Origin: Sabellastarte sp. h YS-2021
Lineage: Eukaryota > Annelida > Polychaeta > Sabellida > Sabellidae
NCBI GenBank assembly: GCA_964017235.1
Contig: OZ024936.1
Span: forward strand, 60,377,028-60,441,027
Direction: 5' to 3'
DNA length: 64,000 nucleotides
Both the position numbers and the translations under genes were made by a program. This document shows positions 1,235-61,495 of this stretch, piece by piece. The first letter of the stretch is position 1, and each line of letters starts with the position of its first letter. The notes beneath the pieces are model-generated. The model made no database searches. It saw only the letters and a program-made list of their open reading frames with translations, and was not told the origin of the DNA.

Positions 1235-1839
1235 ACTTGATGTTTCCAGAACTTGTGACCTTTTCTCCAAATGCCAGGCCGATGGAAGATCTATTTTTAG
1301 CAAGGTTAAGCCCCAATTAGAGGGGGATGAAAATCACTGTACTGGCTAGGTCTAATTAACACAAGAGTTTATAAAAGAAGAGTTTTCTGGGAAATATCTC
1401 ATCAGCTGACAAATTGCTGTGCTAAACCATTGCTCTATGTGAATTTGGAACGATATATTTAAGTTCTAAATAATTAGCAATAAGGTAAATTAAATGTAAA
1501 ACTAGATGAATGCTTTTGCTAACAAAAGCGAAGCGTCCCTGAGAGTTTAAAATGCCTTGTGGTTTTAATAAGTATGCTGTAAAGCTAAGAATGCACAAAG
1601 CTGTACCGTACTGTTACATAAACCAACCCCCTTAGTGATATCATGACAGGGAAAATCCTACAAAGGTCTTCTTTAATTAACATAAACAAGCGTTGTAGAC
1701 ATAGACAAGCTGGAGAAAGTGTTGTACATTGGATGTACAACATTGGATGTAACTTTAGTAAATTTTGTGTAAATGCTACAAAGCATTTCAGTAACGAGTA
1801 TTGATAACTTCATATATAATCATGTGTGCAAGTATGTAT

Positions 1840-3425
1840 TGTTATTTAGATTGTCCACAGGGTTTTGCAATAGGTTTTAATACATTGTGAAAGCATAAAA
1901 GCAACAATAAAGGCAAAAGCTATTTCATGACCCCAGTTTGACCCATACATGGGATTCAGGAGGTAAAACTAACCGGCTATTTAGACTGTCCACATATGGT
2001 TTCCCAATACCTCTTAATACATTCCGAAGCTATAATAGCAACAATGAAGGAGATATCAGGTAAAAACTCCAAAACAGCTATTTTTTACCCCAGTTTGACC
2101 CATAAGGGGGGGTCGGGTGGTAAAACTGACCGGCTACTTAGACTCTCCACATATGCTTTCCCAATACTTCTTAATGCATTCTCAATCTATAAAAGCAACA
2201 TTAAAGGAGATATAAGACAAAAACTCGAAATCAGCTATTTTACGACCCCAGTTTGACCCATGGGGGGGATCAGGGGATAAAAGTGACCAGCTATTTAAAT
2301 TCTCCACATATGCTTTCCCAATACCTCTTAATACATTCTGAAGCTATAAAAGCAACGATAAAGGAGATATAAGGCAAAAACTCCAAAGCAGCTATTTATG
2401 ACCCCAGTTTAGCCTATAAGGGGGGGTTGGGGGGTAAAACTGACTGGCTATTTAGACTCTCCACATAGGCTTTCCCAATACTTCTTAATACATTCTAAAG
2501 CTATAAAAGCAACAATAAAAGAGATATAAGGCAAAAACTCGAAATCAGCTATTTTATGACCCCAGTTTGACCCATAAGGGGGGGTCGGGGGGTAAAACTG
2601 ACCGGCTATTTAGACTCTCCACATATGCTTTCCCAATACCTTTTAATACATTCTGAAGCAATAAAAGCAACGATAAAGGAGATATAAGGCAAAAACTCCA
2701 AAGCAGCTATTTATGACCCCAGTTTGGCCCATAAGGGAGGGGGTCCGGGGGTTAAACTGACCGGCTATTTAGACTCTCCACATATGCTTTCTCAATACCT
2801 CTTCATACATTCTGAAGCTATAAAAGCAACAATAAAGAAGTTATAAGGCAAAAACTCAAAAGCAGCTATTTTATGACCCCAGTTTGACCCATAAGGGGGG
2901 ATCGGGGGGTAAAACTGACCGGCTATTTAGACTCTCCACATATGCTTTCCCAATACCTCTTAATACATTCTGAAGCTATAAAAGCAACAATAAAGGAGAT
3001 ATAAGGCAAAAACTCGAAATCAGCCATTTTATGACCCCAGTTTGACCCATAAGGGGGGGTCGGGGGGTAAAACTGACCGGCTATTTAGACTCTCCACATA
3101 TGCTTTCCCAATACCTCTTAATACATTCTGAAGCTATAAAAGCAACAATAAAGAAGATATAAGGCAAAAACTCAAAATCAGCTATTTTATGACCCCAGTT
3201 TGACCCATAAGGGGGGGCCGTGGGATAAAACTGACCGGCTATTTAGACTCTCCACATATGCTTTCCCAATACCTCTTAATACATTCTGAAGCTATAAAAG
3301 CAACAATAAAGGAGATATAAGGCAAAAACTCAAAATCAGCTATTTTATGACCCCAGTTTGACCCATAAGGGGGGGCCGTGGGGTAAAACTGACCGGCTAT
3401 TTAGACTCTCCACATATGGTTTCCT
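1840..3425. repeat. Tandem array, about 10 units of 157-159 bp
   Basis: The phrase CCACATATG recurs at 1990, 2147, 2304, (2461), 2619, 2778, 2936, 3094, 3252 and 3410, spacing 157-159 bp, with a diverged first unit near 1855. Each unit contains 'gactctccacatatgctttc', AACAATAAAGGAGATATAAG and a short G-run after 'gacccata'. Internal units are far more alike than the edge units, as expected from unequal exchange within the array. The reading frame at 1996-2256 is only a chance open frame through the repeat. Confidence 0.95.
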
Positions 3426-3705
3426 ATTACCTCCCAATACATTTTATGGCTCTAAATGCAATACTTAAGAAGATAATAGGGGGGTTGGCCTAAATTTAAG
3501 GCTCTCAGATTGGAAGGCGTGAGGAAATCACCCATAAATGAGACTTTTTTCAAGGGATTGCTCCCAAAATCTAATCAGCTCGCGTTTTCGATAGTATGAA
3601 CAGGTGTCTCAAATTATAAGGCTGTGTAGCAAGTAGTTTTTCCTGAACTGCGATGACGGGGGGGTGTACTTAAAAAAATTGTTTTTGATCATGTGACCTT
3701 CATAA

Positions 3706-3718
3706 AGGTCAAAGGTCA
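3706..3718 (+). promoter_or_regulatory. DR1-type direct repeat AGGTCA-A-AGGTCA
   Basis: A perfect direct repeat of AGGTCA with one-base spacing lies in the 3' part of the family 5 element. This is the established consensus for RXR/HNF4/COUP-TF-type nuclear receptors. Whether it is bound is unknown; the same sequence recurs in other repeat families of this window. Confidence 0.4.
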
Positions 3719-3883
3719 AATTTAAGCATGCAGAAAAAATTTCCCATGCCTAAGGTATATAACTGCCAAATATGGTTTGAAACCTTGTAATAATAAGGGA
3801 GATATTCAAGGGAGACCATAATGCGGCGGCGGCGGCGAGGAAACTGAGGCGAAAACAAATAAGCGCCCTTTCAGGGACGCTTA

Positions 3884-4199: not shown

Positions 4200-4230
4200 C
4201 CCCCCCCCCCCCCCAGTTCCGATGCCTATG

Positions 4231-15002: not shown

Positions 15003-16059
15003 ACAAGGCCACTGCCGCAGCGGTTATCTCCCACCTTTGAATCAGTCATAATTGAGAACTAAAGGAGACATAAGGCCTTTGTAGTAAGATAACCCCACTT
15101 GACATTGAAGAAGGGGTCAAAGGTAAAAGTCAGCAATTGGAAAGGAGTCTCAGACCATGACTTCCATTGAGTTGTTTTCACATTTAGAACCCCTAGTAGC
15201 AATGATAAGGGCAGTATAAGGCCTTTTAAATAGGATAATCCCATTTTACATTAAATATGTGATATGACAGCCATTTTGTTTACGAAAAAAGGCAAAATTA
15301 CCATCAGGCTAACTTTACTGGCCATATACCTTTGATGCAAATTTGATTAACCTAGCTGCAATATTAATATTTTCAAGTTTTAGAGCATGTTAAGTTTTAG
15401 AGCATCTTAATAATTGGCTATGGAGGCCATTTCCTTTTTCATTATAAGACAAAATTTTTTCTCAGGCAAAACATATGCAGGCCAGGACTTTTCATGCACT
15501 TTTCAGCACCTATAATAAGGGAGAAATAAGGACGTTTTAGTGTGGTGACCCCATTTAACCTTGAAGCAGGGGTCAAAGGTCCAATTCAACACCTGGAAAA
15601 TATTTCCAGGCCATGACTTCCTACAAGCTGTTTTCACATTCCGAACCTCTAGGAGCAATATTAGGGGAGATATAAGGCCTTTTTAATAGGATAACCCCGT
15701 TTGACTTTAAACATGTGATATGGCAGCCGTTTTATTTTTTAAACTAGGCCAAAATTACTATCAGGCTAGTTTTTCTAGCCATATAGCTTTTGTGCAAATT
15801 TGAAGAAGCTAGCTGGAAGATTTCCAGTTTAAAAGCACATTTATGATTTTAAAAAAATTAGCTATGGCGGCTATTTTGTCTTTTCAAAATGAGGCCCAAA
15901 TTTTGCACACAGGTTTTTATAGCCATGAACATTCCCAGCAAATTTGGTGAAGATATCTTTATAAATGAATGAGATATTGAGGTTTATGTAAAAACGTGAT
16001 GAACAGACGCACGTACGGAATGCATTTTAAAATCTCCCATCGGCAGTAGGCGGGAGATA
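15003..16059. mobile_element. Hairpin-type element family 2, copy 1
   Basis: Begins ACAAGGCCACTGCCGCAGCG and ends GGCGGGAGATA. TTATCTCCC at 15024-15032 is mirrored by GGGAGATAA at 16052-16060. The right end can fold through TCTCCC/GGGAGA. The interior holds repeats of roughly 450-500 bp with 'gaccttgaag', GGGGTCAAAGGT and 'aggggagatataaggcc'. Flanking bases on both sides are A. No coding potential. Confidence 0.7.
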
Positions 16060-17692: not shown

Positions 17693-18954
17693 ACAAGACC
17701 ACTGCCGCGGTGTTATCTCCCGCCGAGTATTAAAGGGGAAAAAATACCATTTCCGAGATATTCACATTTTTCATTTTCCGCTAAAATCCAAGATGGCCGC
17801 CAAAAGTGCCGAAAATAGAAATTTTTCCCCTAGGCACAGGATACTCCTGTACTACCCTATGGGTCAAAATTCGTTTTGAAATTGCTCTATCTCTTACCAT
17901 TTCCGAGGTAATTTCAATGTTTACTTTCCACTAAAATCCAAGATGGCCGCCAAAAGTGGCGAAAATTAATTTTTTTCCTTTTGCATAGGGTGGTGTTATA
18001 CAACCCTATGGGTCAAAAATTTCTTCGAAATCACTCTATTTCTTACCGTTTCCGAGATTTTCACAATTTTTCATTTTCTGCTAAAATCCAAGATGGCTAC
18101 CAAAAGTGGAGAAATTGAAATTTTTCTCCTAGGCACAGGATACTCATGTACTACCTTCGCTCGAAATTGCTCTTTCTCTTATGGTTTTTGAGATATTCAC
18201 ACTTTTTCATTCACAAAGTAGCTATTACTCACTTAGCTATGGAGATGCACTTCCAAACTACTGACCATGTTGTAGCTGTGGAGAAAGTAGCTGAACAACA
18301 TATTTGAACAAAATCCTCTAAATGCAATAATTTGAGAGATGTAAGTCATTCAAAAGTAGGCCAAAGTTCACCAAACCCAAAAAATATTGAAGAGTATAAA
18401 AATTCATTAGGCAAGTAATTTACCAAAAATGTGTAACTGTAGTAATTTCAGAGAAAAGTGCGTGACACACTCACGCACAGACGGGTTCCCACAGACTTTT
18501 GACAACTGGATTCAAGGTCTTTTCAAGGATTTTCAACGTCAACAACAACAATTCTCAAGGATATATTTTAAGGCACAGCCTCCTTTACCTCCCCTTCTAG
18601 CCATCCTTTCCTCTCACAAAATTCTTTGTTACATGATTTTAACATTTTATAAACTCATAACAACAATGCTAGTTAACACATCTAATAATATTTTAACATA
18701 AACTTTGTTCAAAATAGATCATACTTGCTTTGCTGAGTCTGCCATAGCCATAAAACTAGATGATGTAGATGAAGAAGTTGGGCAATAACAAATTCAAGGA
18801 CTTTTCAAGGATTTTATTCAATTGTAGCCAAATTCAAGGACTTTCAAGGCCTAGAAAGTGAAGTAATTTTTTTCAAGGATTTTCAAGGATGTGGGAATCC
18901 TGCAAAAACGCACACACATGGTGCAAATTATAATCTCCCTTCGGGCGGGAGATA
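17693..18954. mobile_element. Hairpin-type element family 2, copy 2
   Basis: Begins ACAAGACCACTGCCGCGGTG and ends GGGCGGGAGATA. A 12-bp perfect inverted repeat TTATCTCCCGCC (17713-17724) is mirrored at 18944-18955, and CTCCC-ttcgg-GCGGGAG can fold at the right end. Three core units of about 150 bp contain 'aaaatccaagatggccgcca' and 'ttaccgtttccgagat'. Flanking bases are A on both sides. A MITE (18482-18902) is nested near the right end. Confidence 0.75.
18482..18902. mobile_element. MITE nested in family 2 element
   Basis: Left end CGGGTTCCCACA; right end on the opposite strand CAGGATTCCCACA. Subterminal sequence is rich in 'ttcaaggattttcaagg'. Comparison with the uninterrupted family 2 copy near 29390 shows extra sequence here. 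The exact duplication is not clear. Confidence 0.55.
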
Positions 18955-26604: not shown

Positions 26605-27877
26605 ACAAGAGGGTCAGACATGCCCCAAAAGGCGGGTTGCGCAGGCAGCAATAAGGTTAGTGACTGCTGTAATTAAATTTAGAAACAAGGAAAGAAACGT
26701 TAGGTCATCCAGTTAAGGTAAATGTGTCAGACGTGCAAAGAAATGTAAAACTTGTAATCTAGGTTACATTATTGTATCTATGATATACTAAATATAGGAC
26801 TGAAACTAAGTAAGTGTAGAGCATTAATGTACCGTAATATAATATTGCATGGCACCTAATCACAACAGATAATTTATTAAAGTAAGACATAGTATTACTA
26901 TATCTACAGGATCAATGTATGGTAGATGTATGCAGAAGGTGGTGATAGTGGTTATGAACATACCAAAAAATGTTCATAATTTTTACAGAACGAACAGAAT
27001 CACACCAGTTTCGAAAGCAACTTAGCTATGATGGTGGTCTATCTCCCTGTCAAGTTTGAATTTGATTAGACAAAGTGTTTTCGAGTTAGAGTCCGGAAAC
27101 GGAAATGTTGATGAACAAATGGACAAACGAACACATGGAATTACATCAATTTCGAAAGCAACTTAGCTATGATGGTGATCTATCTCCCTGTCAAGTTTGA
27201 ATTCGAATGGACAAAGTGTTTTTGAGTTAGAGTCCGGAAACGGAAATGTTGACGGACAGACAAATGGACAAAAACGGACAAATAAATGGGCAGAATTACA
27301 CCAATTTCAAAAGCAACCTAGCTATGATGGTGATCTATCTCCCTGTCAAGTTTGAATTCAATTGGACAAAGCATTTTCGAGTTAGAGTCCAGAAACGAAA
27401 ATGTTGATGGACAGACAAACAGACAAAAATTGGACAAACAAACAGACAGAGTTACACCAAATTCGAAAGCACCCTAGCTATGATGGTGGTCCATCTCCCT
27501 GTCAAGTTTGAATTCGATTGGACAAAGCGTTTTCGAGCTAGAGTCCAGAAACAAAAATGTTGATGGACAGACAAACGGACAAAAAATGGACAAACAAATG
27601 GACGGAATTACACCAATTTCGAAAGCAACCTAGCTATGATGGTGATCTATCTCCCTGTCAAGTTTGAATTTGATTGGACAGAGCATTTTCGAGTTAGAGT
27701 CCGTAAACAAAAATGTTGACGGACAAACGGACAAAAAACAAACGAACCAACGGAATTACACCAATTTCAAAAGCAACCTAGCTATGATGGTGATCTATCT
27801 CCCTGTCAAGTTTCAATTTGATTGGACAAAGCATTTTTGAGTTAGATTCCGGAAACGTCAGACACATAAATCTAATA
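26605..27877. mobile_element. Hairpin-type element family 7, copy 1
   Basis: Starts ACAAGAGGGTCAGACATGCC after an A, and ends AATCTAATA. The first 170 bp are single copy and match 37030-37170. The rest is about six tandem units of 141-156 bp, each with 'ctatctccctgtcaagtttg', 'cattttcgagttagagtccg' and a run of 'ggacaaacgg'-like words. The boundary on the right is supported by comparison with 37966, where the two copies diverge. No protein encoded. Confidence 0.75.
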
Positions 27878-28431: not shown

Positions 28432-29453
28432 ACAAGACCACTGCCGCGGTATCATCCACCGAGTATTAAAGGGGAAGAAATACCTTTTCCGAGATATTCA
28501 CAATTTTTCAGTTTCTGCTAAAATCCAAGATGGCCGCCAAAAGTGGAGAAAACTGAAATTTTTCCCCTAGGCACAGAATACTGATGTACTACCCTGCAGG
28601 TCAAAAATTCGCTCGAAATCGAAAACTCTATCACTCATACGGTTTTCAAGATATTCACACTGTTTCATTTTCCGCTAAAATCCAAGATTGCCGCCAAAAG
28701 TGGCGAAAACTGAAATTTTTTCCCCTTTGCATAGGATACTCTTCTACTACCCTACAGGTCAAAAATTTGCTCGAAATTGCTTTATCTCTTACAGTTTTCA
28801 AGATATTCACACTTTTTCATTTTCCGCTAAAATCCAAGATTGCCGCCAAAAGTGGCGAAAACTGAAATTTTTTCCAATTTGCCTAGGACACTCTTCTACT
28901 ACCCTGTGGGTCAAAAATTTGCTCAACATCGCTCTATCTCGTACGGTTTTCGAGATATTCGTGATTTTTCACATTTTCTCCAAAAGTAGCAATAAAGTAG
29001 CCATTACTCACTTGTACATTGAGCAACAGTTGTGAAACTTAAATATGTTACAGTTCACAATAAAGTAGATGAACAACATATTTGAGAGAAATTGTGTAGC
29101 TGCAATACTTTTGAAGATATAAGCCATTTACTCATTATGGTTATCATTAAAAATTGACAAAGTAGCTGTTACTCACTTAGCTATGGAGATACACTTCCAA
29201 ACTACTGACCATGTTGTAGCTGTGGAATATAATTATATTAGGTAAAAGTGCTATTACTCACTCAAAAGTAGGCCAAAGTTCTCCAAACCCAAAAAATATT
29301 GAAGAGCGTAAAAATTCATTAGGACAAGTAATTTACCAAAAATGTGTAACTGTAGTAGTTTCAGAGAAAACTGCGTGATCCACACAGGCACGCACGCACA
29401 CACACACACATGGTAAAAATTATAATCTCCTGCGGTGAGCCGGGCAGGAGATA
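28432..29453. mobile_element. Hairpin-type element family 2, copy 3
   Basis: Begins ACAAGACCACTGCCGCGGTA after an A and ends GGCAGGAGATA before an A. The right end holds a 9-bp perfect stem ATCTCCTGC/GCAGGAGAT. Three to four core units of 140-150 bp carry 'atccaagatggccgccaaaa' and 'tctcgtacggttttcgagat'. The frames at 28584-28865 and 28688-29035 merely run through these units. A segment at 29000-29330 with 'aaagtagctattactcactt' resembles family 1 cores. Confidence 0.75.
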
Positions 29454-31317: not shown

Positions 31318-31767
31318 CAATTAATTGAAAACATGTTAAGTTTTTTTGTATCCAGAATATGATCTGCATCTTTCCCAAAATTTAATCTTGTTGGTGTGTC
31401 ACATTTTATTTCAACAGTAATACCTGCTGGTGTGTTACAGGTTAATTGTCACAATTTAGTAATTTAGATTAATGGTTTCCTCTGTGCATGTGATAAGGGT
31501 GAATCACCAGGAAACAACTAACAGAGCACACACAAAGTTCTATGCATGTTTTATAAAATACTTAAGTTGTAGCTTTATCACTGCCTAATTAACAGGTTCT
31601 TCTGTAACACTTGTTATACGCTTTTACTTTAGTTTGATGCAGCAAACAAACTAAAACAAATCTTTCCTTCCTTTGGTCAGGCCCTATCCATAAAAAAACT
31701 AGAAATAGGACACCTTGTTGATAGTAGCTGCAACATATGAATAGAAACAGGATAGCATAGAAGAACA

Positions 31768-34617: not shown

Positions 34618-34619
34618 AA

Positions 34620-35227
34620 AATGCAACTGTAGTAACATCAGTTTAAAAGTGCTCCTTTTTCAATGAAGAAGTTTCAGACTGAAAAGTATTTAAAGCATTG
34701 CCATGGCAACAGCTGTTGCCAGATACCCTCCAAAAGCAAATAAAATCTAGATCCTCTTTTGGTTATCATGTCCTGGAAAATTTGGTGAAAAATCCATGCA
34801 TTGGTTTAGGCTGCGGAATACCCACAAACTTTAAGACCAAAAGAATATTCAAAGTGTGGCCATGGCAATAGTTATTGCCAGATTCCCACCAAAAACTAAC
34901 GAGCTCTAGATCCCCCTAAGGATAAACTTATCCTCAAAATTTACTGAAAATCTGTGCATTGGTTTAGGTTATGGAACACCCACAAACTTTAAAGACCAAA
35001 AATCTTAAAAGTGTTGCCAGGGCAACAGTTGTTGTCAGATACCCCCAGAAACCTAATCAGCTCCAGATCCTCTTGGGTAAACGTTTACTAAAAATTTGGT
35101 GAAAATCAATGCATGGATTTAGGCTGTGGAATACCCACAAGCTATATGATGATGCCGCCACAGCCACCGCTGCCACTTTGACGATGCAGAGGATGACTAT
35201 AAACCCAGCCTTTATGGGCTGGGGTTA
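34620..35227 (+). mobile_element. Hairpin-type element family 8, about 150-165-bp repeats
   Basis: Three to four units with 'gttgccagatacc', 'aaatttggtgaaaatc' and 'ggaatacccacaaactttaa'. The right end is a 7-bp perfect stem CCCAGCC (35204-35210) / GGCTGGG (35217-35223) and GGGGTTA before an A. The left terminus is not resolved. Confidence 0.6.
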
Positions 35228-36240: not shown

Positions 36241-36259
36241 TGGACTGTAGATAGAACCT

Positions 36260-36690
36260 AGCGCAATAGCATCAAATATGCCCATACCTCAGAGCCCAGG
36301 GAAATTGTCTGCAACACCATGAGATATAAAAGACGAGACACAGTACAAAGATTGGAAGACTTTCCATAGCAGTGTGACATGATGTTGCACACCTACACTG
36401 CTAATTAATGTCCCAAAGTATCGCCTTCCTATACCTTACGGTTTCCAAAATATAACCTGGACAAGATTTTAAAGGTCACCATTATTACAGCAAGGTCAAA
36501 TCAAAGTCATACCAATAACCTTGCACACCTACACCCGCAAACCAATGTCATTACTAAGTATCAACATCTTACACCTCAGGGTTTCTGAGATACAGCCCAA
36601 AACAGCCTTCTCTCTCCAACCCAAACGCCCACCCATCCGGACACCCTGGGTGAAAACAATGCCCGCACAGCCCTTAAAGGCTGTGAGGTA
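36260..36690 (+). mobile_element. Hairpin-type element family 6, short copy
   Basis: Contains 'acaccatgagatataaaaga' (shared with 55366), two diverged core units with 'ttgcacacctacacccgcaa' and 'gggtttctgagatacagccc', and a right end with the perfect stem CACAGCC (36666-36672) / GGCTGTG (36679-36685) followed by AGGTA and an A flank. The longer array is at 55960-56728. Confidence 0.65.
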
Positions 36691-37029
36691 AAAATCTCTT
36701 TGTGCAGCAACAGTTACATTTTCAGTAAAAAATGTATCTCTTTACACTATTTTTGTTATGTCTGACTTGTAATGATGGCTTAATGACTTTCAGTGCTTAC
36801 AAGGATGTTTTTCATTGATCTAGCACTTCACAAAACATTTCTTACACATCTGATTAACACTGGTAAACAGTGAAATGATAACATATAAAATGCTTTAAAT
36901 TATGTTAGATGTAATTCACTCTTTCTAGCATTTGAATTGTATTCATGTCTTAAATACATTATGGTAAGTTCTTTGTATCTGTTGTTTACTGCGCTGATTC
37001 TATTATCAATAATGTGCTGATTCTATTAG

Positions 37030-37966
37030 CAATAAGGTTAGTGACTGCTATATAATTACATTTAGAAACAAGGAAAGAAATGTTAGGTCGCCCAGTTAAG
37101 GTGAATGTGTTAGACGTGCTAAGAAATGTAAAACTTGTAATCTAGATTACATAATTGTATCTATGCTATAAACGGACAAACGAAAGGACGGAATTACACC
37201 AATTTCGAAAGTAACTTAGCTATGATGGTGATGTATCTCCCTGTCAAGTCTGAATTCAATTGGACAAAGCGTTTTCGAGTGAGAGTCCGGAAACGGAAAT
37301 GTTGACGAACAAACGAACAGATGGAATTATACCAATTTCAAAAGGAACCTAGCTATGATGGCGATCTATCTCCCCGTCAAGTTTGAATTTGATTGGACAC
37401 AGCGTTTTCGAGTTGGAGTCCGGAAACAGAAATGCTGACGAACAAACGGACAAAAAACGGACAAACGGCCAGACGGAATTACACCAATTTCAAAAGAAAC
37501 CTAGCTATGATGGTGATCTATGTCCCTGTCAAGTTTGAATTCGATTGGACAAACCGTTTTCGAGTTAGAGTCTGTAAACGAAAAATGTGGGGACGGACAG
37601 AAGGATGGACAGACAAACGGACAAAAAACGGACAAACGAACAGACGGAATTACACCAAGTTCGAAAGGAATCTAGCTATGATGGTGATCTATGTCCCTGT
37701 CAAGCTTAAATTAGATTGGACAAACCGTTTTCGAGTTAGAGTCTGGAAATGAAAATGTGGACAGACAGATGGATGGACAGACAAACAGACAAAAAACGGA
37801 CAAACGAACGGACGGAATTACACCAATTTCAAAAGGAGCCTAGCTATGATGGTGATCTATCTCTCTGTCAAGTTTGAATTCGATTGGTCAAACCATTTCG
37901 AGTTACAGTCCGGAAACAAAAATGTGGATGGGCAGACAGACAGACGTCGGACACATCAATCTAATA
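37030..37966. mobile_element. Hairpin-type element family 7, copy 2
   Basis: Five units of about 150 bp as in copy 1, preceded by the same single-copy lead 'caataaggttagtgactgct'. The left 20-30 bp including ACAAG are missing. The right end AATCTAATA agrees with copy 1. The frames at 37393-37752 and 37874-38077 run through repeat units. Confidence 0.7.
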
Positions 37967-38079
37967 GGCGGATTGCGCCTCAAAATTCCAAGGGTGAAAT
38001 TTAATAAGATTTTTGTTCCAGGACAAAAACTTGACCCTTATAAAATACAGTACACAGACCGAATAGACATAATATGAAT

Positions 38080-40208: not shown

Positions 40209-43200
40209 ACAAGAGGAGAGTGCCCGTGAACGGGCACTGTGTCAGCTGACTGAGTGTTTTTGATTTGTGAAGGTGATTAGAGGACAGAATAATTATCAGG
40301 AAAAGGGCTGTACAGAAATACAGTAAATGGTAACTGAACAGCAAGTTCGAAAGAAATTCCGAAGCTGACAGAAGAAAAGGATAAAAAAGTTGTGCCCTGT
40401 AAATGGTATTATGAAGGAAAATAACAAGGTAATTGTTTAAGTGTAAAAAATAGGTTAAAACATATTTAAAGAAATACTACAAATGCAATATCCTCGTTCG
40501 ACCTTGAAGAAGGGGTCCAAGGTCAAATCTAACCACACAAATACATTCCCAGCCCATGATTTCCTATGGTTTACCATTCCAAACCTCTAGGACCAATTAT
40601 AAATGAGTTATAAGCACTTTTAAGAGTGGCTGTCCTCATTTGACCTTGAAGGAGGGGTCCAAAGGTCAAATCTGACCATACCAAAAGATTCCGAGCCAAT
40701 GATTTCCTATGGGATGGTTTACCATCCCAAATCTCTGTCACCAATAATAAGAGAGTTGTAGGCACTTTCAATTTTCGCTATCCTCATTTGACCTTGAAGG
40801 AGGTTTCCAAGGTCAAATCGGACCATATCAACAGATTCACAGCCCATGATTTCCTGTCTGTTTACCATCCCAAACCTCTGGGACCAATAATAAGCGAGTT
40901 ATAAGCACTTTTAAGTTTGGCTATCCTTGTTTGACCTTGAAGGAGGGGTCATTGAAGGTCAAATCTGACCACACCAATAGATTCCCACCCCATGATTTCC
41001 TACAGGTTGGTTTATCATCCCAAACCTCTAGGATCAATAATAAGGGAGATATAAGCACTTTTCATGACTGACAAAAACACCTGTGGCGGCCATCTTGTTT
41101 CTCAAAATGAGGCCAAAAATATTCCCAGACAACATTTTATGGTTATTAATATATACTGCAAACTTAAGAAAGCTAGCTATAATATTTTTTTTCATCAGAG
41201 CAGTAATGGTGAAATCTCTCTCTACACACTGCGGCTATCCAGTGGATACAATGATTTACTCAACAGTGAGAACCTGAAAGTAGCTATTGCTCAGCTATGC
41301 CATGACATAGAGGTCTGCAATTTCACTATGTTATAGCTGACCAAAAATTCTGTGAATAACATATTTAACAAATTACTCTAAATGTAATAGTTTTCAAGTT
41401 ACAACTGATTTACTCAACAGTGAGAACCTCAAAGGAACTATTACTCAGCTATGCAATGAGCTACATGTCTGAAATTTTACTATGTTATAGCTAACCCAAA
41501 AGTAGGTGAACAACATATTTAAGCAAACTACTGTAAATGCAATAGTTTTCAAGCTACAACTGATTTACTCAATAGTGAGAACCTGAAAATACCTATTGCT
41601 CCGCTATGCCATGAGCTATAGGTCTGTAATTTCACTATGTTATAGCTGACCCAAAAGTAGGTGAACAATATATTTTAACAAAATACTCCAAATGCAATAT
41701 TTTTCAAGTTATAGCTGATTTACTCAACAGTCAGTACCTGAGAATAGCTATTGCTTAGTTGTGCCATGAGCTATAGGTCTATAATTTCACTATGTTATAG
41801 CTGACCCAAAAGTAGCTGAATAACATATTTGCACAAATTTCTGTAAATGCAATAGTTTTCCAATTATAACTGATTTACTCAACAGTGAGAACTTCAAAGT
41901 AGCTATTACTCAGCTATGAAATGAGCCACAGGTCTGAAACTTCACTATGTTATAGCTGACCCCAAAATAGGTGAATAACATATTGAAACAAAATACTCTA
42001 AATGCAATAGTTTTCAAGTTATAAGTGATTTACTCAACAGTGATAACCTAAAAGTAGCTATTACTCAGCTATGCCATGTTATAGCTGGCCCAAAAGTAGC
42101 TGAATAACATATTTATACGAAATTCTCTAAATGCAATAGTTTTTAAGTTACAAGTGATTTTACTCATGATTGAAGTTACTGAAAAGCCCAAAAGTAGCTA
42201 TTACTCACTTAGCTATTGAGACAGACACCCAACTTACTCACCATATTGTAGCTATGAAAAAAGTAGCTGAATAACATATTTTAACAAAATGCTCTAAATG
42301 CAACACTTTTCAAGTTATAAGTGATTTACTCAACAGTGATAACCTAAAAGTAGCTATTACTCAGCTATGCCATGAGCTACCGGTCTGAAATTTTACTATG
42401 TTATAGCTGACCCAAAAGTAGCTGAATAACATATTTATACGAAATTCTCTAAATGCAATAGTTTTCAAGTTATAAGCGATTTACTCAACAGTGATAACCT
42501 AAAAGTAGCTATTACTCAGCTATGCCATGAGCTGCAGGTCTGAAATTTCACTATGTTATAGCTGGCCCAAAAGTAGCTGAATAACATATTTATACGAAAT
42601 TCTCTAAATGCAATAGTTTTTAAGTTACAAGTGATTTTACTCATAATGGAAGTTACTGAAAAGCCCAAAAGTAGCTATTACTCACTTAGCTATTGAGACA
42701 GACACCCAACTTACTCACCATATTGTAGCTATGAAAAAAGTAGCTGAACAACATATTTTCACAAAATGCTGTAAATGCAACACTTTTGAAGTTATAAGTG
42801 ATTTAGTGCATGATTTCATGAATTTTAATGCATTAAAAATTATTAAAAAAATTTATTAAAAAAAAAAGTAAGATAGATCCAGGTCTCATACTCACACAAG
42901 AGAATCTACCTCTGGCCTAGTACATATATGCAAGATATGAGAGAAATCCCTGCAATAGTCACTGAGAAAATTGTGATAAAAAGTTGAAATTTTCACACTT
43001 TTGGTGGGGGTACCCCCCTTGTAATGTCTCTAGCAAACAGACGAACAGACAGATTTGCATGCCTTGAACAATTTTTCATCCTCGATAGATAAGGTATCTT
43101 TTAAAAAAAACAGCATGTCTCTAGGCCTTGTAGTTTTGGAGGAGAAGTTGTTCACGCGGACGCGGACGCGGACGCCCACGCCGCAGAGTGATGACATAAT

Positions 43201-43229
43201 GTCAGCTGACTGACAAGTCAGCTGACATA
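40209..43229. mobile_element. Hairpin-type element family 1, copy 1 (3.0 kb)
   Basis: Begins ACAAGAGGAGAGTGCCCGTG, with the perfect stem GTGCCCGT-ga-ACGGGCAC, then the palindrome GTCAGCTGAC. The right end has GTCAGCTGAC again, then TCAGCTGACATA. Flanking bases are A. Inside are two different arrays: about four units of ~145 bp with 'gaccttgaaggaggggtcc' (40500-41060), and eight or more units of ~155 bp with 'gtagctattactcagctatg' (41180-42800). A GC-rich stretch near 43150 precedes the right end. Copy 2 at 58143-61495 has the same layout. No protein encoded. Confidence 0.85.
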
Positions 43230-50180: not shown

Positions 50181-50290
50181 ACAATGCCAAATTGCCAATT
50201 TATAATATTAATAAATATTTTGATAATGTGGACATTCTTTTGGAGGAAGAAGCACAGGGATAAAACTAAACTAGGAAAATGTTTTTGTTA

Positions 50291-52193
50291 ACAAAAACAA
50301 AGCATCCCCAAAGGTTAGATACATTATTATAAAGTAGAAAAAGGCTTTTGAAAAGAAAAACATGCAGCGCTGAGAGAAGAGGTGAAAGTTAAGCAGTGTG
50401 GAGGTTTATGCATTAACATGAAAGAAAGATGTACACTTTAATTTGCTTTCTTTGGTCATAAATTATGAAAAGTTAATTTCATAAATGCTATAGTTTGTAA
50501 GAGTAGTTTTAAAAGAGATATAAGGCAAAAACAGAAAATCTGCCCTTTTATGACACCAGTTTGACCCATAAGAGGGGTCAGCTATCTAGCTATCTAGACT
50601 CTCCTTATATGGAATCCATTCTAAAGCTGTAAAAGCATTAATGTAGGAGATATAAGGCAAAAGGACCAAATCTGCTATTTTATGACCCCCGTTTAACCCA
50701 TACGCAGGGGGTCAGGGGTAAGAAGTCTTACCGGCTAACTAGACTCTCCACATATGGTTTCCCATAATACTTCTTATTACATTTTAAGGCTCTAAAAGCA
50801 ATAATAAAGGAGATATAAGGCAAAAACATAAAATCTGCTATTTTATGACCCCAGTTTGACCAATAAAGGGGGGTTGGGGGGTAAATCTGACTGGCTATCC
50901 AGACTCTTCACATAAGGTTTTCCAATACCTCTTAATACATTCCAAAGCTGTAAAAGCAACAATAAAGGAGGCATAAGGCAAAACCACAAAGTCAATTATT
51001 TTATGACACCCAGTTTGACCCATAAGGGGGGGGGGTCAGCGAGTAAATCTGACCGGGTATCTAGACTCTTCACATATGGTTTCCCAATACCTGTCAATAT
51101 ATTCTAAAGCTCTAAAAGCAAGAATAAAGGAGATATAAGAGATATAAGGCAAAAAGACAAAATTGGTTATTTTATGAACTCATGACCCATGGGGGGAGGG
51201 GGGGTAAATCTGACCGACTGGCTATCTACACTCTTCACATATGGCTTCCCAATACCTCTTAATACATTCTGAAAGCAATACTAAAGGAGATATAAAGCAA
51301 AATGTCAAAATCGGCTATTTTATGACCCCAGTTTGACCCTGACAGGAGGGTTGGGGAGGAAATTTGACTTGCTTTCTAGACTCTCCACATATGGGTTCCT
51401 ACTACCTCCCAATACATTTTATGGCCCTAAATGCAATACTTAAGAAGATAATAGGGGGTTCACATAAATTTTAAGCTTTCTGGTTGGTACCTGTGAGAAA
51501 ATCGCTCATAAATCGGTCAATTTTCATCAGATCGCTCCTAAAATGTAATTAGCCCGCGTTTTTTGATAGTACAAACACGTGTATGAAATTACAAGCCTCT
51601 GTGGTCAGTAGATTTTAGTGAGCGGCGATGATGGGCGGGTGTACCCGAAAAAACTATTTTTTGATCATGTGACCTTGATAAAGATCAAAGGTCAAATTTA
51701 AGAATGTGAAAAAATTGTCCCATGACTAAGGTATATAACTGTCAAATATGGTTACAAAGCTTCCAATAATAAGGGAGATATTCAAGGGAAACCATAATGC
51801 TGCGGCGGTAAAACCAAAGTGAAAACAAAGAAACGCCCTTTCAGCAGGATGTATCCACTAAATTTCAATATTTTTTCCATGATTTCTCCTTAAAATTAAG
51901 GACCTTTACATGCTTCATGGAATGAAAGAGACATGTACTGAGGCCACAAGCTCCCGCCAGTTTTGCCTTTGAGAACCACTCAAGGTTCCAGTCACAGTAC
52001 AGCAAGATGTGGAAGACACCAATGTTTGATCTGATTACATAGACGTATCCTTGTATTGAAATGCTGGATGAAAGAAAGGAACTATACCGTTTCGTGACAA
52101 TTTTTATGACTTTTCCAAGCTTGGAAAAAATAGTGGAATTCCATGACTTTTCCAGGTTTTCCATGACTGGATACACCGTCTCAGGGATGCTTA
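50291..52193. mobile_element. Hairpin-type element family 5, copy 2, with nested MITE
   Basis: Begins ACAAAAACAAAGCATCCCC after an A and ends TCAGGGATGCTTA before an A. Six to seven core units of about 150-160 bp lie at 50500-51430, more diverged from each other than in copy 1. The single-copy 3' part ('gatcatgtgaccttgataaa') matches 3690-3860. The right-end hairpin is split by the MITE at 51845-52178: its left arm (CGCCCTTTC) ends at 51841 and its right arm resumes at 52179. Confidence 0.75.
51845..52178. mobile_element. hAT-like MITE, 'ccatgactttttcc' type, copy 2
   Basis: Ends CAGGATGTATCCA and, inverted, CGGTGTATCCA. Body nearly identical in order to 19640-20035. It interrupts the terminal hairpin of the family 5 element, so it is younger than that insertion. 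The flanking bases (CCTTTCAG / TCTCAG) suggest a partly decayed duplication. Confidence 0.75.
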
Positions 52194-53000: not shown

Positions 53001-54995
53001 ACAAGCAGTCAGTGCCCATGAACGGGCTCTGTGTCAGCTTACTGTGTGTTTTGAGTTTCAGAGTAGAAGTGAAACAAGAAAAGGACACAAAAATTATGCC
53101 CTGCAAATGGCATTCAGAAGTAAAGTACACAATTAACTGTTAAGATGTAAAAAGTAGGTGAAAAACATATTCAAAGAAAATACTGTAAATGCAACAGTTT
53201 TCAAGTTACAACTGATTTACTCATCAGTAAGAATCTTAAAGCAGTTTAACTCAGCTATGCAATGAGCTACAGGTCAGTGACTTTCCTATGTTATAGCTGA
53301 CCCAAAAGATAGTGACAAATGAATATCATTTTTGATGGAAAGCAAAGCTGTCTCTGTTGAGTGACCTGACTTACATGCTGACTGGTATGAGTTATCCATG
53401 CCATGTCCATGAATACGATCAACCAGCTGTTTAGCAACTACATGTTCCACCAGTTTAGAAATGAAGCTAAGTCCAGATACTGGGTGGTAGTTTTTCAAAT
53501 CCTCAACAGGAAGAGAGGCCTTCTTAATAAGTGGAGTGACTGCAGCTTTTCTGAAACCCTCTGGAACCAGTCCCTCAATGAGTGAGCAATTGGCCAATTT
53601 GGATATAGATGGTAGAAGGATGTCAATGCATTCCTTAATAAGGAATGTGGGTAATGGGTCCAACAGGCATGATTTGGTGGGTGATTTGCTGATTATTTTA
53701 TCAATTTCATCTTCAGTGACTTGAGTAAAGACTGTTAATTTAGGAGGGTCAAAGGGGGGATGTACCGTGTTACAGGACTCAGATGAGGAAAAACTCTCAC
53801 AAATTTTCATGATTTTATTTGAGAAAAATGTAGCAAAACGATCAGCCAATGACTTTGAGGATTCATGTGTAAGCAAAGTAGTGCCATGGGATCTATGTAG
53901 GACCTTGTGTAACTCCTGCCATAGTTTCTTAGAATCATGGCTGTTGTCGCAGATTAGTTTCCTGTAATAGACAGTCTTGTCCCTGTTTGCAAGACGATTA
54001 CACCAGGCGATTTGACGTCAAAGACAACTCCTGTTGTATTGACTTTTATCTTTACGCCAAGCAGGTTCAAATTGACGTCTGAGTAACTTTGCAAGGCGAT
54101 AGGTCTCTGACAACCAGTCAGCATGTTGTTTCATATCCAAACAAAACATAGCAAATGCAATAGTTTTTAAGGTACAACCGATTTACTCAACAGTGAGAAC
54201 CTGAAAATAGCCATTGCTGAGCTATGCCATGAGTTACAGGCCTGCAATTCCACTATGTTATAGCTGATTCAAAAGTACATGAATAACATATTTAAACAAA
54301 ATTTTCTAAATGTAACAGTTTTCAAGTTACAAGCAATTTACTCGACAGTGATAACATGAAAGTAGCTGTTACTCAGCTATGCAATAAGCTACAGGTCTGC
54401 AATTTTACTATGTTATTGCTTACTAAAAAGTTACTGAATAACATATTTATACAAATTTCTGTAAACGCAATAGTTTTCAAGTTATAATTAATTTACTCAA
54501 TAGTGATAACATCAAAATAGCTATTGCTCAGCTATGACATAAGCTACAGTTCTGCAAATTCAGTATGTTATAGCTGATCCAAAAGTAGGTGAATAATGTA
54601 TTTATAGAAAATACTCTAAATGTAATAGTTTTCAAGTTCTAACTGATTTACTCAACTGTGATAGCCTCAAAGTAGCTATCACTCGGCTATGCAATGAGCT
54701 ACGGGTCTGAAATTTTACTATGTTATAGCTGACCCAAAAGTAGCTGAATAACATATTTATATGAAATTCTCTAAATGGAATGGTTTTTAAGTTACAAGTG
54801 ATTTTACTCATTATGGAAGTCACTGAAAAGTCAAAAAGTAGCGATTACTCGCTTAGCTATTGGGATAGACTCCCAAGCTACTCACCATGTTATAGCTATG
54901 GAAAAAGAGGCTGAATAACATCTTTTAACAAAATGCTCTAAATGCAATACTTTTCAAGTTATAAGTAATTTAGTGTATGATTTCGTGGATTTTAT
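53001..54995. mobile_element. Hairpin-type element family 1, copy 3, partial and interrupted
   Basis: Starts ACAAGCAGTCAGTGCCCATG with a decayed stem (GTGCCCAT/ACGGGCTC), continues with 155-bp core units ('gctatgcaatgagctacagg'), is broken by a LINE fragment at 53311-54140, and resumes with five units to about 54990. The right end with GTCAGCTGAC is missing. The left terminus lies 19 bases from the acceptor of SDR exon 1. Confidence 0.75.
53311..54140 (-). pseudogene. CR1/L2-like LINE fragment
   Basis: On the minus strand the frame has RQIAWCNRLANRDK, KLWQELHKVLHR, SLADRFATFFSNKI, KSCLLDPLPTFLIKE, AAVTPLIKKASL and LSFISKLVEHVVAKQL, then a piece of the segment before RT motif A (SGHSTETALLSIKND). 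It closely parallels 56951-57706. The catalytic core is absent, and there is a stop near 54020. It sits within family 1 core repeats; a possible imperfect duplication is CAAAAGATAG / CAAAACATAG. Confidence 0.8.
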
Positions 54996-55340
54996 TTAGG
55001 GCTGCAAACTAGCCCACAAATGCGCTTTGAATCCTCATTTTGGAAGAACTGACTCTGACTCAGTTAATCGCTTGATTATCGCCCACGACATAAACTTAAT
55101 CATTTTTCGAGCTACAACACCTTATAATAAAAGATTAAAATGTACACAACAGGAATGAATATTGATAATTCATGTAATGTTGGAATAAAGAAGCTTTCAT
55201 AATGCAAAATACAGGGAACTTTAACCATTCTTTTATTGCAAGATTTGAGGCGTCTTCTAAATACGTTATATTAAAATGCCGTCTTATAAAAGCATTGTTA
55301 CAGTTTACAAATGCATAAAAAAAATAGCATCAGAAATGTC
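54996..55340. other. No gene seen; single hAT-like end
   Basis: 'tagggctgcaaactagccc' at about 55005 looks like one end of a hAT-type MITE similar to 48130, but no matching second end was found. Confidence 0.4.
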
Positions 55341-55349
55341 CGAACACCA

Positions 55350-56728
55350 CAGCCTGGGAAAAATAGTTTTCAACACCATGAGATACAGAAGTAGTGAAAC
55401 AGTACACAGATTGGGATACTTTCAGAGCAGTGTCAGTGTCCAAATAATGTTTCAGTAGAGAAAATAAAATCTAAGAGAAAGAAATTGCATGTAAAGAATA
55501 AGTACTAAAACAAGACAATTCAGTAAACTAAAAATTATGAAGCTTTAAGACTTCTCCCATTTTGATTTTCATTTGTATGATCGAATTATGGTTTGGATGT
55601 TTTGAATATTACCCATACATACAGATGTAGCAATACATGCTTTTATGTGGAAGTGGGGCAAAACCTGTCGCTCACTTGATTCAATACTATCTGTTATAAT
55701 GGGAAATTGCAAAAGTAAAACAGTTAATGACTTCTAATATGACTTTAACAGTGCTTAATCTATACCAAAAGACACCCAAGGTGCAACAACCAAGATTCAA
55801 GTAAAAAGATACAAGAGAGATACAAGAGAGATAAATAGTATCAGATATCCTCGTAGAGACATAAAATAGCATCAGATATGCAAGATCAAAGGTCAAATCC
55901 AGGTCACACCATAACGTTGAACAAATATAACCCTTGACCAATGTCCCTACCAAATATCAACTTCCTACAAGTTATGGTTTCTAAAATATAGCCCAGACAA
56001 GGCATTATAGGTCAAGGTCACTACAGCAAGGTCAAAGGTCAAATCAAGGTCACACCATAACGTTTTACACCTACACACCCTGGCCAAAGTCCCTACTCAG
56101 TATCAAGTTCCTACACCTTACGGTTTCCGAGATATAGCCAGACAAGATTTTATAGGTCAAGGTCACTACAGCAAGGTCAAAGGTCAAATCAAGGTCAGAC
56201 CATGATGTTGCACACCTACACCCCCTAACCAATATCCCTACAAAGTATCAACTTCCTACACCTTACGGTTTCCGAGATATAGCCCAGACAAGATTTTATG
56301 GGTCAAGGTCACTACGACAAGGTCAAAGGTCAAATCAAGGTCACGCCGTGATGTTGCACACCTACACCCCCTAACCAATGTCCCTACAAAGTATCAACTT
56401 CCTACGCCTTATAGTTTCCGAGATATAGCCCGGACAAGATTTTATACGTCAAGGTCACTACGGCAAGGTCAAATCAAGGTCAGACCATGACGTTGCACAC
56501 CTACACCCCCTAACCAATGTCCCTACCAAGTATCAACTTCCTATGCACTATAGTTTCCGAGATATAACCCAGACAAGATTTTATAGGTCAAGGTCACTAC
56601 GGCAAGGTCAAATCAAGGTCACATCATGACATTGCACACCTACACCCCCTAACCAATGTCCCTACCAAGTATCAACTTCCTACACCTTACGGTTCCCGAG
56701 ATATAGCCCGGACAAGATTTTCAAACTC
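55350..56728 (+). mobile_element. Hairpin-type element family 6, long array
   Basis: The lead 'acaccatgagatacagaagt' matches 36318. From about 55860 there are six units of 139-146 bp with 'gcacacctacaccccctaac', 'tatcaacttcctacacctta' and 'cggtttccgagatatagccc'. Several units carry a perfect DR1 AGGTCAAAGGTCA. The array stops abruptly at 56728 where family 1-type sequence begins, so its own hairpin end is missing. Confidence 0.7.
56029..56332 (+). promoter_or_regulatory. Three perfect DR1 motifs (AGGTCAAAGGTCA)
   Basis: Perfect copies at 56029-56041, 56174-56186 and 56320-56332, one per core unit, plus an additional AAGGTCA half site nearby in each unit. DR1 is the established target of RXR, HNF4 and COUP-TF receptors. 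Binding is not shown. Confidence 0.4.
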
Positions 56729-56888
56729 AAGGTCACAAGTGATTTTACTCGTGATGGAAGTTACTGAAAATTCCAAAAGTAGCTATTACTCACTTTGCTA
56801 TTGAGGTAAACACCCAAGTTACTCACCATGTTGTAGCTATGGAAAAAGTAGATGAATAACATATTTTAACAAAATGCTCTAAATGCAC
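56729..56888 (+). repeat. Family 1 core fragment
   Basis: 'gtagctattactcactttgc' through 'aaaatgctctaaatgca' matches the last units of family 1 (60890-61050). It is cut by the start of the LINE at 56889. Confidence 0.75.
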
Positions 56889-58142: not shown

Positions 58143-61100
58143 ACAAGAGGAGAGTGCCCGTGAACGGGCACTGTGTCAGCTGACTGTTTTTGATTTGTGA
58201 AGGTAATAATGAGAGGAAAGCATAATTATCAGGGAAAGTGCTGTACAGAAGTACAGTAAATGGTAATTGAACAGCATGTTCAAAGAAATTCTGAACCTGA
58301 CAGAAGAAAAGGACCAAAAAGTTGTGCCCTGCAAATGGTTTTATGAAGGAAAGTAACAAGGTAACTGTTTAAGTGTAAAGAGTAGGTTAAAACATATTTA
58401 AAGAAATACTGCAAATGCAGTATCCTCGTACGACCTTGAAGGGGTCCAAGGTCAAATCTGACCACACAAAAATATTCCCAGCCCATGATTTCCTATAGGT
58501 TGATTTACCATCCCAAACCTCTAGGACCAATAATAAGCGAGTTATAAGCACTTTTAAGTTTGGCTGTCCTTATTTGACCTTGAAGGAGGGGTCCAAAGGT
58601 CAAATCTGACCACACCAAAACATTCCCAGCCCATGATTTCCTATAGGATGGTTTACCATCCCAAACTTCTAGAACCAATAATAAGCGAGTTATAGGCACT
58701 TTTAAGTTTCGCTATATTTGTTTGACCTTGAAGAAGGGGTTCAAGGTCAAATCGGACAACATCAACAGATTCCCAGCCCATGATTTCCTACAGGTTGGTT
58801 TACCATCCCAAACCTCTAGGACCAATAATAAGGGAGATATAAGCTCTTTTCATGACTGACAAAGAAACACCAGTGGCGGCCATCTTGTTTTTCAAAATGA
58901 GCCCAAAAATATTCCCAGTCAAGATTTTATAATGAGGAACATATCCTGCGAATTTGAGATCTCTACTTATAATACCCTTTGCTCTAGAGGGCCAACAAAA
59001 GTCCTTTTTAAAGTCGAATAAACATCCCTGGCGGCCATCTTGTTTTTCAAACTGAGGCCAAAAATATTCCCAGACAACATTTTATGGTTATTAATATATT
59101 CTGCAAACTTGAGAAGGCTAGCTATAACATTTTTTTCATTAGAGCAGTAATGGTTAAATCTCTCTACACACTGCGGCTATCCAGTGGATACAATGATTTA
59201 CTCAATAGTGAGAACCTGAAAGTAGCTATTGCTCAGCTATGCCATGACACAGAGGTCTGCAATTTCACTATGATATAACTGACCAAAAATTATGTGAATA
59301 ACATATTTAAACAAAATACTCTAAATGTAATAGTTTTCAAGTTACAACTGATTTACTCAACAGTGATAACCTCAAAGTAGCTATTACTCAGCTATGCAAT
59401 GAGCTACATGTCTGAATTTTTACTATATTATAGCTGACCCAAAAGTAGGTGAACAACATATTTAAGCAAAATACTCTAAATGCAATAGTTTTCAAGTTAC
59501 AACTGATTTACTCAATAGTGAGAAACCTCAAAATAGCTATTGCTCAGCTATGCCATGAGCTATAGGTCTGTAATTTCACTATGTTATAGCTGACCCAAAA
59601 GTAGGTGAACCACATATTTTAACAAAATACTCCAAATGCAATATTTTTCAAGTTACAACTGATTTACTCAACAGTCAGTACCTGAAAATAGCTATTGCTC
59701 AGTTGTGCCATGAGCTACATGTCTGTAATTTCACTATGTTATAGCTGACCCAAAAGTAGCTGAATAACATATTTACACAAATTTCTGTAAATGCAATAGT
59801 TTTCAAGTTATAAGTGATTTACTCAACAGTGATAACCTCAAAGTAGCTATTACTCAGCTATGCCATGAGCTACACATCTGAAATTTTACTATGTTATAGC
59901 TGACCCCAAAATAGGTGAATAACATATTTAAGCAAAATACTGTAAATGCAATAGTTTTCAAGTTACAACCGATTTACTCAATAGTGAGAACCTCAAAATA
60001 GCTATTGCTCAGCTATGCCATGAGCTATAGGTCTGTAATTTCACTATGTTATAGCTGACCCAAAAGTAGGTGAACCACATATTTTAACAAAATACTCCAA
60101 ATGCAATATTTTTCAAGTTACAACTGATTTACTCAACAGTCAGTACCTGAAAATAGCTATTGCTCAGTTGTGCCATGAGCTACAGGTCTGTAATTTCACT
60201 ATGTTATAGCTGACCCAAAAGTAGCTGAATAATGTATTTACACAAATTTCTGTAAATACAATAGTTTTCAAGTTATAAGTGATTTACTGAACGGTGATAA
60301 ACTCAAAGTAGCTATTACTCAGCTATGCAATGAGCTACATGTCTGAAATTTTACTATGTTATAGCTGACCCAAAATTAGGTGAACAACATAGTTAAGCAA
60401 AATACTGTAAATGCAATAGTTTTCAAGTTACAACTGATTTACTCAATTGTAAGAACCTCAAAATAGCTATTGCTCAGCTATGCCATGAGCTATAGGTCTG
60501 TAATTTCACTATGTTATAGCTGACCCAAAAGTAGCTGAATAACATATTTACACAAATTTCTGTAAATGCAATAGTTTTCAAGTTATAAGTGATTTACTCA
60601 ACAGTGATAACCTCAAAGTAGCTATTACTCAGCTATGCCACAAGCTACAGATCTGAAATTTTACTATGTTATAGCTGACCCCAAAATAGGTGAATAACAT
60701 ATTGAAACAAAATACTCTAAATGCAATAGTTTTCAAGTTATAAGTGATTTACTCAACAGTGATAACCTAAAAGTAGCTATTACTCAGCTATGCCATGAGC
60801 TACAGGTCTGAAATTTTACTATGTTATAGCTGACCCAAAAGTAGCTGAATAACATATTTATACGAAATTCTCTAAATGCAATAGTTTTCAAGTTACAAGT
60901 GATTTTACTCAAGATGGTAGTTACTGAAAAGCCCAAAAGTAGCTATTACTCACTTAGCTATTGAAACAGACACCCAAGTTACTCACCATGTTGTAGCTAT
61001 GAAAAAAGTAGCTGAATAACATATGTTAACAAAATGCTCTAAATGCAACACTTTTCAAGTTATAAGTGATTTAGTGCATGATTTCATGAATTTTAATGCA

Positions 61101-61495
61101 TTAAAAATTATTAAAAAAATTTATTTAAAAAAAAGTAAGACCGATCCAGGTCTCATACTCACACAAGAGAATCTACCTCTGGCCTAGTACATATATGCAA
61201 GATATGAGAGAAATCCCTGCAATAGTCACTGAGAAAATTGTGATAAAGTGTTGAAATTTTCACACTTTTGGTTGGGGTACCTCCCTTGTAACGTCTCTAG
61301 CAAACAGACGAACAGACAGATTTTCATGCCTTGAACAATTTTTCATCCTCGATAGATAAGGTATCTTTTAAAAAAACAGCATGTCTCTAGGCCTTGTAGT
61401 TTTGGAGAAGAAGTTGTTCACGCGGACGCGTTCGCGGACGCCCACGCCGCAGAGTGACGACATAATGTCAGCTGACTGACAAATCAGCTGACATA
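58143..61495. mobile_element. Hairpin-type element family 1, copy 2 (3.35 kb), inside a LINE
   Basis: Begins ACAAGAGGAGAGTGCCCGTG with the perfect stem GTGCCCGT (58154-58161) / ACGGGCAC (58164-58171) and the palindrome GTCAGCTGAC. Ends with two GTCAGCTGA-type palindromes and ACATA. Left array: about four units of ~145 bp (58430-58860). Right array: at least eleven units with a nearly fixed 155-bp period (59226 to 60777). Removing it leaves CCTGAA|AAAACTGAG, restoring the LINE frame, so no target bases were duplicated or lost. Confidence 0.92.
59200..61080. repeat. Tandem array of 155-bp units
   Basis: The phrase CTATTRCTCA starts at 59226, 59381, 59537, 59692, 59847, 60002, 60157, 60312, 60467, 60622 and 60777: ten intervals, of which nine are 155 bp and one 156. 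A final diverged unit follows at 60943. Alternate units look more alike, for example the 59537/60002/60467 and 59692/60157 units, which suggests a higher-order period of 465 bp made of three units. Confidence 0.95.

Follow-up and report, generated by a model that had tools for sequence, protein, structure and literature searches.

The 64,000-nucleotide window analysed here, from the sabellid annelid Sabellastarte sp. h YS-2021 (contig OZ024936.1, positions 60,377,028 to 60,441,027), is rich in HINEs, the non-autonomous relatives of Helentrons, which carry satellite-like repeats in the middle of the element. The repeats very probably represent several families of non-autonomous Helentrons of the Helitron2 type, one of which, family 7, is related to a full-length Helentron found elsewhere in the same genome. 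This element, designated Hel-A, appears from its sequence to have been active recently. Helentrons, HINEs and the satellite-bearing HINEs of bivalves are already published.

A preliminary description, made from the letters of the window, held that several repeat families share one set of ends, ACAAR on the left and a hairpin followed by TA on the right, that they insert between A and A, and that one rolling-circle enzyme moves them all. Its direction of reading was that of the wrong strand: all listed elements but one run on the minus strand, and the "right" hairpin is their 5' end. On that strand, the host T is followed by TA and a subterminal inverted repeat (subTIR) of about 11-12 bp, which folds on the next bases, its complementary arm, into a 5' hairpin. 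Most elements continue with a short microsatellite and a tandem core of units of about 145-170 bp; a second subTIR, a palindrome and CTTGT or CTAGT lead back to a host T. As expected of HINEs, the 5' hairpin is formed by an inverted repeat together with the subTIR, and the distance of the subTIR from the terminus is short on the 5' side and greater on the 3' side. The 3' palindrome is visible in families 1, 2, 2b and 3.

The assignment to Helentron-type rolling-circle elements is borne out by the ends, the T|T target and the Rep/helicase partner described below. Canonical Helitrons (Helitron1), with TC...CTRR ends and insertion between A and T, would account for the CTAG that precedes T at the ends of families 3 and 5, and oyster Helitron-like elements are also reported with CTAG ends (PMC7992393). 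We consider this highly improbable, because the 5' ends begin with TA rather than TC (families 2, 3 and Hel-A), insertion occurs at T|T, a 5' hairpin is present and the partner carries a C-terminal endonuclease; the set of 5' TC, 3' CTRR and A/T insertion is not found.

In the window letters, ACAAR stands at all ten left positions listed in the preliminary description, each preceded by A, and A follows 11 of the 13 right ends, with C at 31317 and 17679. The terminal stem-loops were recovered in part: a simple hairpin scan gives a score of at least 10 at seven of the 13 right ends (29453, 31317, 33784, 35227, 36690, 43229 and 61495), while the other six score lower or are not listed; two further plus-strand sites (30827 and 49636) also reach at least 10. 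Similarly, an inverted subterminal repeat of 9-12 bp is paired beside an upstream ACAA for six right ends (3883, 16059, 18954, 43229, 52193 and 61495), belonging to families 1, 2, 2b and 3, but no pair was found for 29453 (score 8 in the control scan), 31317, 33784, 34617, 35227, 36690 or 17679. The control scan scored subterminal inverted matches lying no more than 60 bases from AACAAR or AACTAG sites: at least 9 was reached by 6/7 two-ended elements against 25/400 random TA|A sites, and at least 10 by 4/7 against 9/400.

Copies of the elements were sought in the source genome (1.786 Gb; contigs are labelled C and fetched stretches L). For families 2, 3 and 5, copies were picked because the match extended to the query end, and the counts therefore mark where identity stops rather than the number of complete copies. 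In family 2, all ten left ends read A|ACAAG and all ten right ends stand before A, with unrelated flanks. In family 2b, represented in the window at 15003, A|ACAAR is found in 8/8 best-scoring matches, the window copy being one of them, again with unrelated flanks; the right end could be placed in five of the eight, with A next in all five. The right hairpin of copy L002 is interrupted by the 5' end of another HINE (TTTTTACCCCACAGCC), the right end of L003 is likewise disrupted, and that of L005 was not found.

Elsewhere the ends had to be moved. All ten family 3 copies remain identical for 21 bp beyond the proposed left end (ACTAGATGAATGCTTTTGCTA, with one variant letter) and then diverge, each after A, which places the true end at A|ACTAG (window 1501) and makes ACAAAAG (1522, 50291) internal. 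With this shift, the palindrome GCTTTTG-TTAG-CAAAAGC, which the earlier end had split, takes the usual HINE position; the right end GCTTA|A holds in 10/10 copies. In family 5, the last TA of the hairpin is followed by C in 18 of 20 copies and by A in two, with CAAT next in 15 of 20, and the end accordingly lies 3-4 bp beyond GGATA. For its left end, the more likely candidate is ACTAGACC at 30735, as read in two copies only. The proposed family 7 end AATCTAATA was discarded: a second copy runs on into AGGCGGATTGCGCCT, and the autonomous element has the full end. The family with core F (36690) lacks the ACAAR end, and its two copies have AATAGCATCA in common on that side. For family 1, a 200-base query from the left end gave no match in the genome under a search that skips common words, so the family rests on the two window copies and the genomic stretch L029. 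Most of the described ends stood, those of families 3, 5 and 7 excepted. The notion of one common set is not supported: the ACAAR side occurs in at least two kinds, ACAAR and ACTAG, with a third in the 36690 family, and families 3, 5 and F led to the rejection of a single ACAAR...TA rule.

The insertion site is best seen at two Rep-gene fragments, L028 and L029, which lie about 7 kb apart on one contig (C4:175901991-175912435) and are 98% identical over about 1 kb. One of them is interrupted by a family 1 element (L029/L054) that is 97.6% identical to the window copy over 3 kb. The empty site reads CTCAAAAAAATGCAG; the filled site has CTCAA before the element and AAAATGCAG after it. The insertion, which falls between As with one A ambiguous, duplicates no bases. 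Five bases to the right of the insertion, L028 has about 100 bp absent from L029, for which we have no explanation. Copies with both flanks compared, four of family 2 and five of family 3, show no target duplication beyond A-rich chance. Insertion between A and A (T|T on the element strand) without visible duplication, as originally described, is supported for families 1, 2 and 3, with a boundary made ambiguous by A/T runs. The same data bear on the idea that the repeats are elements resembling miniature inverted-repeat transposable elements, moved by a DDE transposase: inverted subterminal repeats and terminal hairpins would suit it, but the repeats are asymmetric, no target duplication is visible in the copies of these three families just described and the partner found is a Rep-helicase-endonuclease, which leaves it a next to negligible probability.

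That partner emerged from a search of the genome with Helitron_like_N, which yielded 24 matches (all 36 candidates scored). Hel-A is about 12.3 kb long, and its four copies (L012, L014, L015 and L017) are 98.9-99.4% alike in the stretches compared. At the locus of L015 (L033/L034) the frame is open over 2245 codons (2245 aa) and, submitted in two pieces, matches Rep (PF14214, 2.2e-25), PIF1 (PF05970, 4.3e-27) and a C-terminal endonuclease (PF03372, 1.4e-5); it contains H-x-H and Walker A motifs. About 460 bp past the stop codon, a stretch of 235 bp is 86.8% identical to the family 7 end and finishes with CTCTTGT|T. This 3' end was seen in three of the four copies, with unrelated flanks, the L012 stretch having stopped short. 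The 5' end, also seen in 3/4 copies with unrelated flanks (it falls outside the stretch fetched for L012), consists of TTTTT-AGGYGGGTTGCG, the hairpin, a GTCY microsatellite and the G core; thus Hel-A carries the family 7 core and its microsatellite adjoining its own 5' end. L015 sits inside a family 3 array and shows insertion into a T-run, which leaves the exact base unfixed. The Rep/helicase gene flanked by the same ends that the preliminary description called for thus exists for family 7, both ends of Hel-A being read, but was not found for the other families.

In Hel-A and its derivative (L035:1616 and 2216; L048; L049; L116; L117), the 5' end is repeated internally, with the second copy lying about 600-780 bp inward of the outer one. 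According to PMC8268682, tandem truncated Helitrons can arise when repeated 5' ends recombine.

When a 3-kb Hel-A DNA query was compared with the genome (40/42 candidates scored), 27 places were found, beside full copies and a few partial ones, that share one common breakpoint and cover query bases 2447-3000, a 554-bp helicase segment, at 99-100%. In the three copies fetched, a deletion of about 8 kb, which takes out Rep, has brought the 5' module (96-97% identical to Hel-A) next to the helicase part (98.6-99.3%). CTCTTGT forms the 3' end in 3/3 fetched copies. Fifteen more stretches were taken from where this end was predicted to lie; 12 contain it and three missed it. Two of the three fetched copies have an open frame of 823 aa that matches a helicase and, below threshold, an endonuclease; in nine copies compared, these two included, the frame is free of stops. 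Identities of 99-100% suggest that the derivative has moved recently, in a burst of deletion derivatives. At G000:C3:85339000-85340930, two starts of its internal segment stand 1377 bp apart, as expected of a tandem in which the first copy is truncated.

Several observations weigh against the reading of the repeats as non-autonomous Helentrons with Hel-A as the family 7 partner. The base following CTCTTGT is T, A and T in the three full Hel-A copies, and T in 9/15, C in four and A in two of the derivative copies; consequently, T|T stands only on the condition that the final T belongs to the host. In L015, the outer 5' end departs from the 3' subTIR at one base (AGGT for AGGC), on account of which the detector left it unpaired, and the 3' palindrome is weak in Hel-A as well as in family 7. 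The whole frame is open in L015 only (844, 1783, 2245 and 647 in L012, L014, L015 and L017, respectively). The elements at 33784, 34617, 35227 and 17679 are one-ended in the window, and in the Rep loci read no autonomous partner was found for families 1, 2, 2b, 3, 5 or F.

The last point raises the question of whether one active Helentron, Hel-A or a relative, moves all families in trans by reading the outermost letters (5' TA and 3' CTWGT) and the hairpins. The outer letters are indeed alike in families 1, 2, 2b, 7 and Hel-A (CTTGT|T) and close in families 3 and 5 (CTAGT), family 1 (97.6%, two copies) and family 3 (94-96% in the best-covered other copies) look fairly young, and no second complete autonomous element was found. 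However, the subTIR and 3' palindrome differ from family to family and are kept in the copies read, where neither was seen to cross between families, and those of Hel-A match family 7 only. Moreover, the 24 Rep matches of the genome form eight groups with no listed DNA alignment between them (alignments over 250 bp). We therefore regard a single enzyme, the proposal of the preliminary description, as unlikely. Quite unlikely, too, seems its extension, in which a live system of Hel-A and the young Rep-less derivative with its open helicase-endonuclease frame would also move other families through TA...CTWGT and seed unrelated cores, while the repeated internal 5' ends of Hel-A would grow arrays. 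Since no subTIR or palindrome was seen crossing and the Rep genes fall into eight groups, separate Helentron families are more likely, family 7 being the sole one with its partner shown.

Under the Helitron/Helentron model, a Rep-helicase-endonuclease made elsewhere would nick at the 5' T|T, a single strand would be peeled off through rolling-circle replication, and the 3' palindrome with CTWGT would mark the stop. Family 7 elements, which have the 3' end, core and microsatellite in common with Hel-A, would be its internal-deletion relatives by presumed descent. For each of the remaining families, a separate Helentron bearing that family's subTIR most likely exists or once existed, and cores are presumably swapped among families, with no role in recognition.

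The cores themselves are consistent with such exchange. On the forward strand, core units A, B, F and G are linked stepwise, C goes with D, and E with H, making about three homology groups; these groups leave unexplained a reverse-strand match of D to E and H (z 4.2 and 3.4). B cores occur in families 1 and 5; E cores, or stretches like them, are found in both family 1 and family 2 as well as next to 53001. Cores thus cross between families, in agreement with the earlier claim that they change independently of the ends. Many cores contain a GAGATAT-like word, e.g. GGTTTTCGAGATATTC, AAGGGAGATATAAG and GGTTTCCGAGATATAG, with weak statistical support. In motif searches, a GAGATAT-like box was best among five cores (0/30 shuffles at width 14, 1/30 at width 18) and among eight cores at width 18 (0/20), and a different motif won among three cores and among eight at width 14 (0/30 and 0/20). 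As related cores inflate motif statistics, a box common to all cores is not relied on. At G000:C5:31463397-31472717, overlapping family 3 matches extend over about 9.3 kb, as a several-fold longer core array would give.

Around the remaining Rep matches, about 1.5 kb was read in either direction, and for some a further 5.5 kb. A search for the ends of three other Rep lineages (L010/L016, L009 and L022) did not find them. For three other Rep loci, read over about 16-19 kb except for gaps of 499 bp, the outcome was weak 9-bp pairs only (one in E09, four in B16, none in D22). The second lineage, L010 and L016 (on C1 and C2), consists of two copies 99% alike, both breaking at GGGGGGCTTATGTC; a family-3-like 3' end lies between the Rep and helicase frames in both. 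Neither exact-pattern scans of viral and genome contig collections nor a blastn search of family 1 against phages and plasmids gave any match.

Within the window, several two-ended families have a second copy or relative, as self-comparison indicates. Except where stated, the elements lie on the minus strand. Family 1 occupies 40209..43229, with the 3' end ..GGGCACTCTCCTCTTGT at 40209, the 5' end TATGTCAGCTGAC at 43229 and B and E cores; its second copy, at 58143..61495, was placed by its end letters, self-comparison and the subterminal inverted match. Family 2 is present at 17693..18954 and at 28432..29453, the latter with a C core, an E-like stretch and ends checked on genome copies. The former encloses a 420-bp high-copy module (18483-18902), which recurs at 38 other places among the matches listed, with 91-94% identity, and looks like a separate, younger repeat. 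Family 2b lies at 15003..16059, its ends likewise checked on genome copies. Family 3 lies at 1501..3883, with an A core and the 3' end corrected from 1522, and again at 50270..52193, where the 3' end was corrected from 50291 by analogy with the genome copies. Family 5 is found at 30735..31321, with the 5' end ATTGTATCCACC and its 3' subTIR lost, and in the opposite orientation at 538..1231 on the plus strand, where TATCCACT is kept near the 3' end and the ends are approximate. Of family 7, one copy (26605..27876) is 5' truncated, with a G core and a 3' 230 bp common to Hel-A, and the second (37013..37986, ends approximate) keeps a shortened 5' hairpin and is without the 3' terminus.

The other elements are less complete. 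A family-1-like 3' end at 53001..54994, for which no 5' end was found, is followed by a fragment of a long interspersed nuclear element (LINE) and an E core, and its right limit is uncertain. The F-core HINE at 36258..36690 has the 5' end TACCTCACAGCC at 36690, a 3' side that is not ACAAR and an approximate left end; in its second copy (55322..56736), the 3' side lies near 55322 and the F array reaches 56736, with no 5' end found. D and H core arrays at 32044..33784 end in the 5' end TATGTCCATCC at 33784, and the element at 34618..35227 has the 5' end TAACCCCAGCCC at 35227 and an uncertain left limit; no 3' end was found for either. LINE reverse-transcriptase frames are also present. The repeat at 61682-63977, whose 244-aa frame lacks a Pfam match, has a 78% identical counterpart of about 2.1 kb next to Hel-A copy L017 (L041).

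A Helentron that is complete at both ends, with an open frame, near-identical copies and a burst of derivatives, makes the question of the HINE partner testable, namely which ends the Hel-A enzyme accepts and whether arrays grow during Hel-A replication. Among literature titles, none was found on an autonomous partner of such HINEs in a mollusc, subscription papers and Repbase lying outside the search. An oyster genome paper reports that no autonomous element was detected and judges the Helitrons of the oyster likely inactive (PMC7992393).

The FoHeli3-5 elements of Fusarium (PMC5148889) have asymmetric inverted repeats and a 3' end, CTCCTGT, that resembles CTCTTGT; they differ in the 5' end TGCCT and in having no 3' hairpin, and fungal Helitrons are reported there to lack the endonuclease domain. 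Helitron2 (Bao and Jurka 2013, PMC3627910) shares with the present elements the 5' T, an asymmetric terminal inverted repeat (ATIR) forming a hairpin at the 5' end and a 3'-ATIR just inside the 3' hairpin, while Hel-A has the endonuclease that marks Helentrons. The DINE-1/HINE elements and Helentrons of mites and flies (Thomas et al. 2014, PMC4067079) are similar in having subTIRs, a palindrome on the 3' side, TT as target, Ts that vary at the boundary and deletion derivatives of Rep/Hel/endonuclease elements; Hel-A, for its part, itself has a satellite-like core and a second, internal 5' end. The bivalve pearl/CvA elements, too, bear a likeness to the present ones in description (PMC7492417).

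A close resemblance in layout is that to Cg_HINE of Crassostrea gigas (Vojvoda Zeljko et al. 2020, PMC7492417), which has an 11-12-bp subTIR, a complementary inverted repeat and a GTCY-type microsatellite on the 5' side, a satellite-like core, and a 60-bp 3' side with a subTIR and palindrome. It likewise has a T-rich target without duplication and related flanks around unrelated cores. HINEs are thought to spread the satellite-like arrays of oyster genomes, and no relation to Cg_HINEs could be established in that work for any of the ten autonomous oyster elements in Repbase. Family 7 differs from Cg_HINE in having a link to a complete Helentron, which was read at both of its ends.

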